Shown: in pieces, positions 21,659 to 27,065 of the stretch | How the letters are laid out: every line of letters starts with the position of its first letter | Position numbering within the stretch: position 1 is the stretch's first letter | Assembly: GCF_014931565.1 (NCBI RefSeq) | Contig: NZ_CP063353.1 | Location: forward strand, 3,410,001-3,474,000 | Reading direction: 5' to 3' | DNA: 64,000 bases | DNA from: Clostridium sp. 'deep sea' | GTDB lineage: Bacteria; Bacillota; UBA994; PWPR01 | Program-made: the position numbers and the translations under genes | Notes under the pieces: generated by a model | Database searches by the model: none | What the model was told of the DNA's origin: nothing | The model's input: the letters and a program-made list of their open reading frames with translations, nothing else

Positions 21659-22519
21659 CTAATGTTTTCTTTCAATTACTGGTATCCATATTTCACTTAC
21701 ATAATCTTCTGCGTAGTGGTTTCCAGCATAATAAACCTCTAACTCAGGAGTAAGAGCATGTTCGTATTTGGTTGCTGGTAACCACTCTGCATAAATTCTT
21801 TTCCATACTTCTTGAATGCCCTGGGGCATAGCACCAACACACTTAAAAACCGCCCAAGTACAAGAGGGTATATTTAATACAATCGCATTTTCTAATCCTT
21901 CAATATTTTCACCATCAACTGCAATTAAGTAACTAAAAAGCTCGTGTTCAAAATCATAGTCATAACCTACACCATATGATTTTATTTTATTATTAGTTAT
22001 TAAGTCCATATTACCTGACTGTACTAACTCTTGTAAAAATAAAGGAATAGTATTATAACTTTTATTATTTTTCATTGATACTCGCTTACTTAAACCAACA
22101 ACTTTAAAGCTATCTTTACGTACTATTTTGTAATCCATTCTTTCTTCTCCTTTTATAGTTAATTGAAAAGAAAGTGGCAAAACTGTTTTTAGCATACCCT
22201 GCTTTTTGCGAGCTATAGATGGTGATATGCCATGAAATCTTTTAAACACTTTACTAAAAGCCTCTGGGGTTTCATAACCATACTTATAAGCTAACTCAAT
22301 AATCTTAATATTAGTAGTTATTAAATCTTTTGCTGCTAAAGATAATCTTCTGTTCCTTATATATTCACCTAAAGGATAGCCAGCTAAAACCGTAAAGGTG
22401 CGCAAAAAATGATACTTAGAGCATAGTGCTATTTTGGCTAGTTCATCATAATTAAGCTTTTCGAGTATATTATCTTCTAAATAGTTTAGGGCATTATTTA
22501 ATGCTTTTAGCCAGTTAAT
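21659..22519 (-). CDS. AraC-family regulator with GyrI-like effector-binding domain (apparent ATT start)
   Basis: The protein has an N-terminal AraC DNA-binding domain (two helix-turn-helices: YDELAKIALCSKYHFLRTFTVLAGYPL.., then IKIIELAYKYGYETPEAFSKVFKRFHGISPS) and a C-terminal GyrI-like small-molecule domain (MDYKIVRKDSFKVVGLSKRV to VSEIWIPV). The first ATG (22405) would cut away most of the first helix-turn-helix. The frame is open upstream for 38 more codons with clear family similarity (INWLKALNNALNYLEDNI), back to a TGA at 22537. The only plausible initiator there is ATT (22519, or 22522), directly behind aaaggcggtgg, a near-perfect ribosome binding site. I therefore set the start at ATT, giving 286 residues. 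A lost start codon is the alternative. Family members respond to drugs or other hydrophobic ligands. Confidence 0.8.
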   Translation of the reverse strand: MNWLKALNNALNYLEDNILEKLNYDELAKIALCSKYHFLRTFTVLAGYPLGEYIRNRRLSLAAKDLITTNIKIIELAYKYGYETPEAFSKVFKRFHGISPSIARKKQGMLKTVLPLSFQLTIKGEERMDYKIVRKDSFKVVGLSKRVSMKNNKSYNTIPLFLQELVQSGNMDLITNNKIKSYGVGYDYDFEHELFSYLIAVDGENIEGLENAIVLNIPSCTWAVFKCVGAMPQGIQEVWKRIYAEWLPATKYEHALTPELEVYYAGNHYAEDYVSEIWIPVIERKH

Positions 22520-22609: not shown

Positions 22610-22662
22610 TTGACAGCTTAGTTATACACTTGTATAATAAAACTGGTTATACAAATGTATAA
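22610..22662 (+). promoter_or_regulatory. BlaI-type promoter with two tandem operators
   Basis: A consensus promoter is present: TTGACA (22610-22615), 17 bp, TATAAT (22633-22638). Two 16-bp palindromes, ttatacacttgtataa (22622-22637) and ttatacaaatgtataa (22647-22662), share the core TACA-NN-TGTA, the known recognition core of BlaI/MecI repressors. Their centres are 25 bp apart. The first overlaps the -10, the second the transcript start. The BlaI homologue encoded at 22682 is the obvious ligand. Confidence 0.88.
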
Positions 22663-22681
22663 TTGCCCGGGAGGATTTAAA

Positions 22682-23062
22682 ATGTTCATAATGAATAAAC
22701 GTTTATCTGATGCAGAGCTAGATATTATGCTTGCAGTATGGAGCAGTGATCAACCTGTAAGTGCATCAACAATATTAGCAGAGTTAAAAGGTAAAAGAGA
22801 ATGGGCCTTATCTGCTTTAATGACTGCACTATCACGATTAATTAAAAAAGGTTTTTTAAGGTGTGAAAAACAAGGTAGAAATAACTTGTATTACTTTATT
22901 GTTGATGAAGACGAGTACAAACAAGCCGAAGGTAAGTCAATTTTAGAGAGATTATATGGTAATTCATTTAAAAATTTAGCTGTAGCTTTATATAATAGTA
23001 AAGCCATTAGTGAAAAAGATATCGCAGAATTAAAAAGTATAATTGAAGATATTAAGGAGTAA
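22682..23062 (+). CDS. BlaI/MecI-family transcriptional repressor
   Basis: A 126-residue repressor: LSDAELDIMLAVWSSDQPVSASTILAEL, ALSALMTALSRLIKKGFLRCEKQGRNNLYYFIV covers the winged helix, and the C-terminus is the dimerisation/cleavage region. The start at 22682 follows gggagg; an earlier ATG at 22655 lies inside the operator. Repressors of this family are cleaved after activation of the BlaR1-type membrane protease, encoded three bases downstream. They control beta-lactamase in staphylococci but many other targets in Clostridia. No beta-lactamase gene is seen here. Confidence 0.94.
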   Translation: MFIMNKRLSDAELDIMLAVWSSDQPVSASTILAELKGKREWALSALMTALSRLIKKGFLRCEKQGRNNLYYFIVDEDEYKQAEGKSILERLYGNSFKNLAVALYNSKAISEKDIAELKSIIEDIKE

Positions 23063-23065
23063 AAC

Positions 23066-25081
23066 ATGATTAGTGAAGTAGCTTTAAAAATGCTTCAAAT
23101 ATCTTTAGAAGCTAGTATAGTAATTCTTTTAGTATTAGTTTTAACGCCTTTATTAAAAAGAAAATACTCTGCAAAGCTAAGATATTATATATGGTTGGCT
23201 TTGGCTATTAGATTAGTAATACCATTTAGTTTCTCTTTACCAAATAGCTTGACCATCTACCCAGTTCCTAAATCAATAGTACAAGCTGAAGTGAGCCAAA
23301 ATGGTGAAATAGTAACACTTAGTAACAAAGTTATTGTAGAACCTGAAACACCTGCTATAGCTGTAACAGAAAGTGATGATTATGAAGATACAGCAGGTGT
23401 CCAATATGTATCGAAACAAAACATGTACAAGATGAAGCAAAATATACTATATTATCTTCCTTTAATATGGATGTTAGGTATAGTGGTACTTGTTACTCAT
23501 CAGCTAATTGCCTATATAGTATTTTATAGTCTAGTAAATCGATGGAGTAGATGCAATAGCAATTTAGTTATTAGTAATTGTGTTAATAAAGTGATGTTGA
23601 ATCTTAACATGAACAATAAAATCACAATTTTACATAGTAAGATGGTTTCTAGTCCAATGTTAATTGGTTTTGTAAAACCTAAGTTAGTATTACCTGAACT
23701 AAAATATAGTGAGCTTGACTTGCAAAATATCATTAAACACGAATTAATACATTTAAAAAGACATGATATTTGGTTTAAATTGCTATTACAGATAGTAAAA
23801 GCAGTTCACTGGTACAACCCACTAATTTATATAATGCAAAATCAAGCATTCAAAACTATAGAACTGTCTTGTGATGAAGAAGTTGTAAAAGGCCTAACCA
23901 TTGATTGTAAAAAGCAGTATAGTTATACAATATTAAATTCAATAATAGAACAGCAGCAAAATAATAGTGTTTTTCCAAGCTATTTTTATAATAGCAGTAT
24001 TACTACAAAAGAAAGGATTAAAAATATAATGAATCATAACAAGAAGAAAAAAGGTAGCTTAATTTTTATTATGTTATTGGTATGCGTATGTTTAACTGGA
24101 AGTCTTTTGGTATATGGTGCAGATCAAGAAAGTAAACAACAGATTGAATTATCTAAGCAGGATCAAGTTTTTCTTAACTATATCGCTGAGCTAAAAGACA
24201 ATAGTTTAGCTATTAACTACCATTCTATAGAAGAAGGCAATTGCATGATATATACTATAAAATCTCTCAATAAAAGAGAGATACTGAAAGTGTATCTTGA
24301 GCAAGTTGAAAATACTGCAAACGAGCTTGTTTGGACTGTAAAAAAACATAAATATCTTAAACAAGAGTATGAAAGTATGTATCTTACTGAAGCCTGGATA
24401 GAGGCTCAAAAATATCATGATAATAAAGCTTTGGGCAATTTACTTTCTGATGAATTAAAAAAGCAATATTTAAGTTCAGAAGGCAAAGTGTCTTGGGATG
24501 ATTTAGCGGTAGAAAAATATGAAGCAACATTTAATGATTATGGTTGTTTAATCAATTATTTTCTAAAAGACATAGATTCAAGTTATTATGATTACCAAGA
24601 GACACTGACTTTTGGCAGAGAGAATAATAAACTTGTTATAGAGTCTATAAATGATGAGAAACAAATTAATAATCCTACTGATAATTCAAAAAGTCATGTT
24701 TTTTCATCAGATATTAATGTTATATTCATGCAATCAAAAGACCCTGAAACACTGTTAAAAAAGTATCGCCAAGGATTATTGAATGATGCATATACGACAA
24801 TGCTTTTGTTAACCAATGATGTAAACTTTGATGCAGAAGAACTTGCACGTAACACAATTAAGGTTAGTAGGGTTGAGGTTATTAATAAAGAAGTAAAAGA
24901 AAATAAAGCATGTTATAAACTAGAAATTGATATAGACAATGCAGATAAATCTGTTGATACAGAAACTTATACACGTTGGCTGTATATGAAAAATAGTGAC
25001 AGTAACGATCAAGCCGATGCAAATTGGCAATTAGCAGGTCTTTTGGATGGTGCACCAAGTCAAAAGTGGTGGAATAAATAA
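23066..25081 (+). CDS. BlaR1/MecR1-type M56 membrane metalloprotease with non-penicillin-binding sensor region
   Basis: The 671-residue protein has N-terminal membrane helices (about 8-30, 36-55, 128-155), the M56 zinc site NIIKHELIHLKRHDIW (H225, E226, H229) in the cytoplasmic loop, and a further helix (about 332-350, LIFIMLLVCVCLTGSLLVYG). The external C-terminal ~320 residues lack the S-x-x-K, S-x-N and K-T-G motifs of penicillin-sensing BlaR1. Instead they resemble the protein encoded at 25287 (shared W-V-K-K, ENNKLVI, and final W..GL....WWN). It should signal to the BlaI-type repressor by proteolysis upon binding an unknown external ligand. A terminator follows at 25102. Confidence 0.88.
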   Translation: MISEVALKMLQISLEASIVILLVLVLTPLLKRKYSAKLRYYIWLALAIRLVIPFSFSLPNSLTIYPVPKSIVQAEVSQNGEIVTLSNKVIVEPETPAIAVTESDDYEDTAGVQYVSKQNMYKMKQNILYYLPLIWMLGIVVLVTHQLIAYIVFYSLVNRWSRCNSNLVISNCVNKVMLNLNMNNKITILHSKMVSSPMLIGFVKPKLVLPELKYSELDLQNIIKHELIHLKRHDIWFKLLLQIVKAVHWYNPLIYIMQNQAFKTIELSCDEEVVKGLTIDCKKQYSYTILNSIIEQQQNNSVFPSYFYNSSITTKERIKNIMNHNKKKKGSLIFIMLLVCVCLTGSLLVYGADQESKQQIELSKQDQVFLNYIAELKDNSLAINYHSIEEGNCMIYTIKSLNKREILKVYLEQVENTANELVWTVKKHKYLKQEYESMYLTEAWIEAQKYHDNKALGNLLSDELKKQYLSSEGKVSWDDLAVEKYEATFNDYGCLINYFLKDIDSSYYDYQETLTFGRENNKLVIESINDEKQINNPTDNSKSHVFSSDINVIFMQSKDPETLLKKYRQGLLNDAYTTMLLLTNDVNFDAEELARNTIKVSRVEVINKEVKENKACYKLEIDIDNADKSVDTETYTRWLYMKNSDSNDQADANWQLAGLLDGAPSQKWWNK

Positions 25082-25101
25082 TTAATACCCTTTATATTAA
25101 A

Positions 25102-25140
25102 AGCCAAATAGTTGATATTATCAGCTATTTGGCTGTTTTT
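25102..25140 (+). terminator. Intrinsic terminator of the blaI-blaR1-type operon
   Basis: Arms agccaaatagttgata and tatcagctatttggct (one mismatch) around a minimal loop, followed by gttttta. Confidence 0.88.
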
Positions 25141-25286
25141 ATTTATATAAAATACAGAACAAAAGCTAAGTTAAACACGTATATTTAATGAAGTAAATAT
25201 GCTATTATTAAATATATCAAAAAAAATCATATAATAAATTAATAGCTATTTTTTTCTATAAAGTATATATGAAATAGAGGTGTAAC

Positions 25287-26534
25287 ATGTCAGCAAAAAC
25301 TGAAACCACTGCCAATGAACTTCCTGTAATAAAAATTATATTAATCATAAGTGTGGCATTGTTTTTAATACATGTGGTATATCAAGACTCATTGTGGACA
25401 AAAGTTGATAACCCTGTGTTCAACAATTTAAGTGAAGACAAACTAAGTCAGCTTAATAATATTATGATAGTTTATAACAACTTTTTGGAAACTATAGGAG
25501 ATAAAAGTATAATACAGAGTTATGAAATAAAAGATGTAAATGAACATGAAAAACTAATTAAAACAAAGAGCTATAGCAGAAGACAATATTTAGAGGTTAA
25601 ACTTAAATTACAAAGCATAAAAATTAATAATACCAATCAGCAAATTTGGTGTGTAAAAAAGTATAAATATAGTAATCCTAAAGATAAAAGTTTATTTTTA
25701 ACTGAACTGTTAGCTGAAACTTTGAAATCACGTGACTATAAATCATATTATCAAATATTATCACAGAAACTTAAACAAGAAAATACTTATTTGTTGAATT
25801 TACATAGTGCGCAGGTTGAAGATAAAAATCAGCTTGGTATGTATGAATGGTTTTTAGGTAATTCTTGTTTAGGAGTATCTATAGTAGATTATGAAATAGA
25901 GGTTTATGAAAACTCATACATAATTACCTACTGTTTAATTGACTCAATACCAACTAAGTTTTTCAGAAAAGAAAGGGTAACATTTAAAACTGAGAATAAC
26001 AAATTAGTTATTGCAACTCAATATAGTCCTCATGCTACCTGGCTTCGAAAGAATGAGAAAGATGAACAACAAGAAAAACAAATTTATTTCGATGCTTATA
26101 TAAACAGAGAATACCCTCTGTATTTAAAAGAAAATGACCGCAGGGCCTATAATAAGCTTTATGATAGAGCAAAAAATGGCTTGATTAATAGAAAACATTA
26201 TGATTCTGCAAAGCTTGCCATGCAAAGTTATACTAAGGCAATGTTAGCTGGAGATTACCTACAATTAGTAATGGATTCTGTAGGCGAAAGATTTAACTCC
26301 GAGGGGCTAAAAGTTTGGTCAGTAATTAAAATAACAGATATTAACATCACAAAAGAAGATATCCGTGAATATAAAGCATTTTATCAGCTAGAAATTAATT
26401 TGGATTATGCAGGTCAAACTCAATTAAAAGTAGGTAAAAATACCTTATGGCTTTACTTACTAAAAACCAATAAAGGATGGGTAGTTGAAGGTTTAAAATC
26501 TAATCATCCTAATGAACATTGGTGGAATACTTAA
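25287..26534 (+). CDS. Membrane-anchored stand-alone copy of the BlaR1-like sensor region
   Basis: The 415-residue protein has a single N-terminal membrane helix (about 13-31, IKIILIISVALFLIHVVY) and a large external domain. That domain is related along its length to the external part of the upstream M56 protease. Shared blocks, in order, are W-[TC]-V-K-K-x-K-Y, S-x-x-L-T-E, E-x-[LV]-T-F-x-x-E-N-N-K-L-V-I, I-x-x-E-x-x-E-x-K-A-x-Y-x-L-E-I, T-x-W-L-Y and a C-terminal W-x-x-x-G-L...W-W-N. It has no protease helices. The ribosome binding site is gaggtgtaac. It may bind the same ligand as, or heterodimerise with, the receptor; this is inference. Confidence 0.72.
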   Translation: MSAKTETTANELPVIKIILIISVALFLIHVVYQDSLWTKVDNPVFNNLSEDKLSQLNNIMIVYNNFLETIGDKSIIQSYEIKDVNEHEKLIKTKSYSRRQYLEVKLKLQSIKINNTNQQIWCVKKYKYSNPKDKSLFLTELLAETLKSRDYKSYYQILSQKLKQENTYLLNLHSAQVEDKNQLGMYEWFLGNSCLGVSIVDYEIEVYENSYIITYCLIDSIPTKFFRKERVTFKTENNKLVIATQYSPHATWLRKNEKDEQQEKQIYFDAYINREYPLYLKENDRRAYNKLYDRAKNGLINRKHYDSAKLAMQSYTKAMLAGDYLQLVMDSVGERFNSEGLKVWSVIKITDINITKEDIREYKAFYQLEINLDYAGQTQLKVGKNTLWLYLLKTNKGWVVEGLKSNHPNEHWWNT

Positions 26535-26558: not shown

Positions 26559-27065
26559 ATGCTAGTGAGAGAACACCATGACAAAAAAACAAATAAGTTT
26601 TGTAGATATTTAGGAATTGAATATCCCATAATACTAATAGAAGATACAACTCTAGAAAAAGACTATGTGGAATTTAACTTAAATAGCTTTAGTTATTATT
26701 TTAACTCTACTAAAAACCATAATATAATCAAATGTTTACAGAAATTTTATAAAAAAGAATGTCGAAACATTATTAATGAAAGACTAAAAATATACCAAGC
26801 TCAAATTAGGTTAAAGTACCGATCAGTAACAATAAAAGAGAGTAGTGCTATATGGGGAAGTTGCAATATAGATAAACACCTGGTTTTTAATTGGAAGTTA
26901 ATTATGTTGCCAATAGAGGTAATTGATTATGTAGTAGTACATGAGCTATGTCATTTAAAACACCTGAACCACGATAGATCTTTTTGGAGATTAGTGGGAA
27001 GATACTACCCTAATTATAAAGATATTATGAAAATACTAGGAACAGATAAAAAGAAAAGTTTATAG
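26559..27065 (+). CDS. YgjP-like metal-dependent hydrolase (DUF45)
   Basis: A 168-residue zincin of the YgjP/DUF45 family: SSAIWGSCNIDKHLVFNWKLIMLPIEVIDYVVVHELCHLKHLNHDRSFWRLVGRYYP contains HExxH (about H128-H132) and the downstream conserved H and W. This is shorter than the usual ~230 residues because the N-terminal part is reduced. The protein is cytoplasmic, and its substrate is unknown. It begins 24 bp after the sensor-like gene, so it may share its transcript. A terminator follows. Confidence 0.85.
   Translation: MLVREHHDKKTNKFCRYLGIEYPIILIEDTTLEKDYVEFNLNSFSYYFNSTKNHNIIKCLQKFYKKECRNIINERLKIYQAQIRLKYRSVTIKESSAIWGSCNIDKHLVFNWKLIMLPIEVIDYVVVHELCHLKHLNHDRSFWRLVGRYYPNYKDIMKILGTDKKKSL

Follow-up and report, generated by a model that had tools for sequence, protein, structure and literature searches.

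BlaR1 is, to our knowledge, known almost solely as a penicillin sensor. The locus described here raises the question of what other ligand a receptor of this type might detect, and what a membrane-anchored copy of its external part is doing beside it. The locus lies in a window of 64,000 nucleotides, the whole stretch of DNA analysed (G000:C1:3410001-3474000), from the single-contig, 3.83 Mb genome of Clostridium sp. 'deep sea'. Genes for a BlaI-family repressor, an M56 receptor, the copy and a YgjP-like metallopeptidase follow one another on the plus strand, with a terminator between receptor and copy. It comprises a BlaR1-type receptor, whose unnamed ectodomain is NTF2-like in one domain or more, together with an anchored twin, and is one of a small recurring class. 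The features are as follows.

22610..22638, +, sigma-70 promoter of the blaI-M56 operon, TTGACA-17-TATAAT, 12/12 consensus match
22621..22638, +, BlaI/MecI-type operator 1, GTTATACACTTGTATAAT, overlapping the -10 box; one unit of an 18-nt direct repeat, each unit a dyad
22646..22663, +, BlaI/MecI-type operator 2, GTTATACAAATGTATAAT, 25 bp from operator 1; 18-nt direct repeat, dyad
22682..23062, +, BlaI-family repressor (PF03965, 4e-28, 98.5 bits; MecI 1sd6, 9.5e-15)
23066..25081, +, BlaR1-type M56 receptor, 671 aa (PF05569, 6.5e-56, residues 8-321; BlaR1 8exp, 5.8e-8)
24152..24355, +, receptor D0, residues 363-430; a helix and four strands in the model, so far only in the receptor/copy pair
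24356..24649, +, receptor D1, residues 431-528; NTF2-like by AlphaFold model and structural comparison
24740..25078, +, receptor D2, residues 559-671, ending WWNK; helices and four strands in the model
25102..25134, +, intrinsic terminator in the receptor/copy gap, 15-bp stem and T-rich tail
25287..26534, +, free-standing membrane-anchored ectodomain copy, 415 aa (anchor 14-32, D0 53-128, D1 129-245, D2 306-415)
26559..27065, +, short YgjP-like metallopeptidase, the second in the genome (PF01863, 9.1e-44)

The blaI-M56 operon and its receptor

Both features sought in a BlaI/MecI repressor, a Penicillinase_R domain and dyads at its own promoter, were present. Translation likely starts at the ATG at 22682 (GGAGG at 22670-22674), since the start of the longer open reading frame, at 22655, falls within operator 2. 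When the 3.83 Mb genome was scanned for the operator core TTATACANNTGTATAA, operators 1 and 2 were the only sites with zero mismatches. As judged from these sites, blaI-M56 is a predicted autoregulated operon of the BlaI type. A BlaI regulon extending beyond the locus was considered and rejected: the nine one-mismatch sites precede no recurring gene type, and sites with up to two mismatches numbered 111 as against 112 for a reversed-pattern control. A link to defence systems was dropped as well, the sole PADLOC match being to the DNA-binding part of the repressor. Immediately upstream of blaI, on the opposite strand (21659-22405), lies a gene for an AraC-type regulator with a GyrI-like/Cass2 effector-binding domain.

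With a PF05569 score of 190.1 bits against a curated cut-off of 31, the receptor belongs to the M56 family. The zinc motif HELIH occupies residues 225-229 (23738..23752, +) and ELSCD, residues 266-270, provides the E-XXX-D motif (HEXXH and E-XXX-D as defined in PMC9834060); the protease part aligns with the Staphylococcus aureus BlaR1 structure 8exp. Hydropathy, on which the topology is based, gives hydrophobic segments at residues 12-30, 40-58, ~127-152 and 331-349, with the ectodomain after the fourth. The locus resembles the BlaR1/MecR1-BlaI/MecI systems of S. aureus and B. licheniformis in its M56 protein with HEXXH and E-XXX-D, its BlaI-family repressor directly upstream, its two promoter operators of the TACA-N2-TGTA type and the position of the ectodomain after the last membrane segment. 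It differs from them in its NCBIfam blaR1_generic score (128.6 bits, below the cut-off of 400) and in having no penicillin-binding ectodomain. The latter had been read from the letters alone and was borne out: the external region gave no match to a family of penicillin-binding type, including PF00905 (1.3e-39 at the classical locus L131, described below), and contains no KTG motif. Since PF00905 and KTG are absent and D1 is NTF2-like, the beta-lactam-sensor domain of BlaR1/MecR1 is not present here, and penicillin sensing by the receptor was ruled out on the lack of a PBP-type domain and of KTG. No beta-lactamase or PBP gene directly adjoins the receptor.

The mechanism that we propose follows the proteolytic signalling of BlaR1 (PMC9834060). 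BlaI would occupy the two operators of its own promoter and repress blaI-M56, while the receptor would cross the membrane four times, hold its zinc site in the cytoplasm and display D0-D1-D2 outside. An extracellular ligand, most likely a fragment of the cell envelope or an envelope-acting compound, would bind in an NTF2-like pocket; binding would activate the M56 protease, leading to cleavage of BlaI and derepression of the operon.

The ectodomain and its free-standing copy

The sequence-only reading held that the external part of the next protein is related to that of the receptor, and this proved clearly significant. BLASTP of the receptor ectodomain (~363-671) against the external part of the copy gave E = 5e-20 with 25% identity over 375 columns, spanning almost all of the latter, and the Smith-Waterman score of 260 lies 24 standard deviations above that of 1000 shuffles (mean 49.6, sd 8.6, maximum 89). 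The three sub-domains match one another in collinear order (D0, E = 0.002; D1, 5e-5; D2, 8e-11), and the shared blocks ENNKLVI (in D1) and terminal WWN (in D2) are present as described. So is the neighbour's single membrane anchor, the only hydrophobic segment being at residues 14-32, and it has no HEXXH protease domain. One boundary needed moving: the shared region had been placed from ~350, and begins at ~363, past the last membrane segment.

The membrane segment of the copy aligns with the last one of the receptor, and because of this match the copy resembles the ectodomain-coding end of the receptor gene minus the protease. Such a match would also be found in a relic, the remnant of a decaying duplicate of the receptor gene. 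We regard a relic as very improbable, since the frame is open over 415 codons, conserved core positions are shared with distant relatives and codon composition is as in the neighbouring genes; that so long a frame is intact when identity to the paralogue is down to 25% implies selection on the copy. The homologous external part, the missing protease and the adjacency of the two genes would likewise suit a decoy that competes for the ligand and so sets the threshold of the receptor. However, the same low identity does not imply conserved ligand affinity and the literature search found no precedent, so that a decoy seems quite unlikely.

The AlphaFold model of the ectodomain, built from six sequences, has a mean pLDDT of 64.8 (moderate confidence) and consists of three blocks, in each of which four strands come after at least one helix. 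A D1-D2 model of a relative from a Clostridia MAG has a mean pLDDT of 72.7 (moderate confidence). Tandem NTF2-like proteins took the top Foldseek ranks for the models. With a second structural aligner D1 matched 4kvh (Z = 11.7, rmsd 2.5, 97 aligned residues), and 259 of 999 chains reached Z >= 8, among them CaMKII hubs, the RsgI9 anti-sigma factor and the PBP5 N-terminal domain. As modelled, D1 has an NTF2-like fold. It shares the helices and curved four-stranded sheet of this superfamily (RsgI9 7sjy, VirB8-like OrfG 7pkw, the CaMKII hub, the PBP5 N-terminal domain), and differs in sequence (about 10% identity to D1) and in its setting, a tandem ectodomain on an M56 receptor. D2 shows helices and four strands in both models, a layout like that of D1; the rows from the second aligner covered D1 only. 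Profile comparison with hhalign revealed no similarity of D0 to D1, D0 to D2 or D1 to D2, and a tandem-repeat origin of the three was dropped.

No match of the ectodomain to Pfam or NCBIfam reached a curated cut-off, and a sequence search of the PDB found no relative (best E = 0.28). The ectodomain family is unnamed, and is not a new fold. The suggested sensor domain is therefore new as far as Pfam and NCBIfam are concerned and not new as to fold, D1 being NTF2-like with relatives in secreted proteins.

A search in other BlaR1-like proteins, which the sequence-only reading had suggested as a check, found parts of the domain: D2 recurs in M56 receptors and D1 in some, and D0 was found only in the pair. 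D1 has relatives in one further M56 protein encoded by this genome, and also in secreted proteins that have no protease; several of the latter have a conserved N-terminal part, which in one that was scanned is a copper-amine-oxidase N-terminal domain. Relatives of D2 occur in M56 receptors of Desulforamulus aeronauticus (L051) and of Clostridia MAGs (AS23, which is L048). L048 and L051 encode M56 receptors adjoining a blaI gene, and D1 and D2 are found together in L048 and in L049, whose sequence stops at a contig edge that leaves any M56 part out of view. These loci and the others with D1 or D2 differ from the window in that neither D0 nor a free-standing copy was seen. A search of the only other genome of the genus did not turn up the pair, and no relatives emerged when plasmids were searched with the ectodomain, phages with the copy and viral contigs with D1-D2. 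A first scan of genome contigs with the receptor ectodomain as query gave no match, and none of the papers searched dealt with other M56 sensor domains.

M56 receptors with twins at other loci

We surveyed 108 M56 loci, drawn from genomes across the phylum together with the seven M56 loci of this genome save one. A twin was defined as a locus neighbour homologous to the external part of the receptor, and other genes of at least 330 residues in the same loci served as controls. Neighbours that copy the ectodomain alone were found for 6/105 M56 genes compared with 1/285 control genes (Fisher p = 0.002), an excess that is suggestive only, because it was tested after the pattern had been seen and the open reading frames were called mechanically. 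The value becomes 0.006 when the window is excluded, 0.016 when the whole of this genome is (4/98 versus 1/285) and a borderline 0.05 if two loci with NAGPA domains are counted once. A seventh call, at L114, was dropped as a 78-residue fragment. Sequence linkage sorts the sampled M56 loci whose ectodomain has at least 60 residues, 104 in all, into 34 groups, from which it follows that most such receptors probably sense something other than penicillin. Among the seven M56 receptors of this genome the ectodomain is either absent or of one of several kinds that look unrelated.

The six twin loci are the window, L033 (with two copies), L083, L136, L104 (an unnamed domain) and L131, the pattern recurring on unrelated ectodomains. 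At L033 (L033:3055-6819; G000:C1:3356054-3359818) two secreted proteins of 256 and 254 aa are encoded ahead of the M56 receptor and are homologues of its ectodomain. Of these two free-standing genes, the first has the promoter/operator seen at the blaI of that locus (score 72, compared with a maximum of 47 in 1000 shuffles). A related receptor in a sister genome (G001) has no twins nearby. L083:5950-8773 and L136:4171-7008, from two species of one genus, encode M56 receptors with a NAGPA (phosphodiester glycosidase) ectodomain; 9-11 bp further on lies the gene for an anchored NAGPA protein (56-62% identity). L131 is a classical BlaR1/class D beta-lactamase-type pair, in which the neighbour has a transpeptidase fold and two TACAAGTGTA dyads upstream.

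A further locus of this genome, L036 (L036:25-7551; G000:C1:3662024-3669550), has a 330-aa M56 protein without an ectodomain and a BlaI gene among genes for four related secreted proteins, 51-63% identical. The local blaI operator is present on two of the four secreted genes (scores 76 and 68, null maximum 38), and this M56 protein possibly senses by way of the separate secreted proteins. From their upstream sites, the operator-bearing neighbours at L033, L036 and L131 look like outputs. Since L131 is a classical pair and a twin at L033 has the operator of blaI, the twins look like regulated partners that handle the same ligand as their receptors. At L035 (L035:3521-5571) an M56 gene is overlapped by the start of a gene for a 200-aa anchored protein of no recognised family, probably in the same operon.

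The copy as a proposed partner of the receptor

The sequence-only reading had offered a co-receptor, decoy or ligand carrier; comparison with these loci favours, by analogy, a different role for the copy, as the output of the system or the partner that handles its ligand, in the way that beta-lactamase serves BlaR1. The copy would bind, carry or neutralise the ligand that the receptor detects, and would have arisen by an old duplication of the ectodomain-coding part, which would make its relation to the receptor like that of a class D beta-lactamase to the BlaR1 sensor. An autoregulated BlaI/M56 module with the copy as its ligand-handling partner is our preferred reading, to which we give not quite an even chance of being right. 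L131 and the window are alike in the homology of receptor ectodomain and free-standing neighbour. They differ in that the neighbour at L131 is a member of an enzyme family and is preceded by two operator dyads; neither is seen in the window, where the copy has no recognised enzyme motif.

The regulation of the copy weakens the partner reading, because the copy is transcribed separately, downstream of the terminator, and has no upstream operator. A pattern search found none in the receptor/copy gap, the best alignment score of the upstream region with the blaI operator was equalled by 326 of 1000 shuffles, and there is no further operator copy within about 5-10 kb either side of the locus; direct control of the copy by BlaI was rejected on these grounds. 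The locus has the homologous free-standing neighbour of a sensor/effector pair, with neither a cognate BlaI operator nor a shared operon.

The absence of an operator supports two other readings. In one, the copy would serve as a co-receptor or as a negative subunit, pairing with the receptor or presenting the ligand to it; a partner that is always present would fit with a gene transcribed separately and apparently without regulation, and the two proteins share orientation and an anchor-plus-ectodomain layout. BlaR1 itself is a domain-swapped dimer in which a neighbouring loop touches the sensor (PMC9834060). Most ectodomain-bearing M56 loci, however, have no such copy, and the blaI operator on free-standing neighbours at two other loci of this genome fits an output better, so that a co-receptor is a serious though rather unlikely alternative. 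In the other, common ancestry is all that links the two proteins, and the copy, now divergent, has an unrelated job in the envelope, perhaps with the YgjP-like protein, whose gene lies 24 bp downstream and is probably co-transcribed with it. The low identity and the separate transcription unit fit such a divergence, as do the NTF2-like relatives of D1 found in many secreted proteins that lack an M56 partner. Yet the D0-D1-D2 order is collinear, D0 is known solely from this pair and the copy still lies beside the receptor; we consider mere common ancestry unlikely, though it too is a serious alternative.

A free-standing neighbour of this kind offers a handle on the ligand, for it may bind the same molecule and lends itself to expression more readily than the receptor. 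More broadly, BlaR1-type receptors may be a general chassis whose sensor has repeatedly been copied from the secreted or anchored protein under its control. The penicillin receptor and its beta-lactamase would be one instance, and NTF2-like, NAGPA and other unnamed domains would sense envelope ligands. We offer this generalisation tentatively and rate it somewhat doubtful; if true, the pattern would supply a simple rule by which to predict the ligand of each receptor. The two YgjP proteins of this genome differ in extent, the one outside the window covering the full family profile and the one beside the copy lacking its first quarter.
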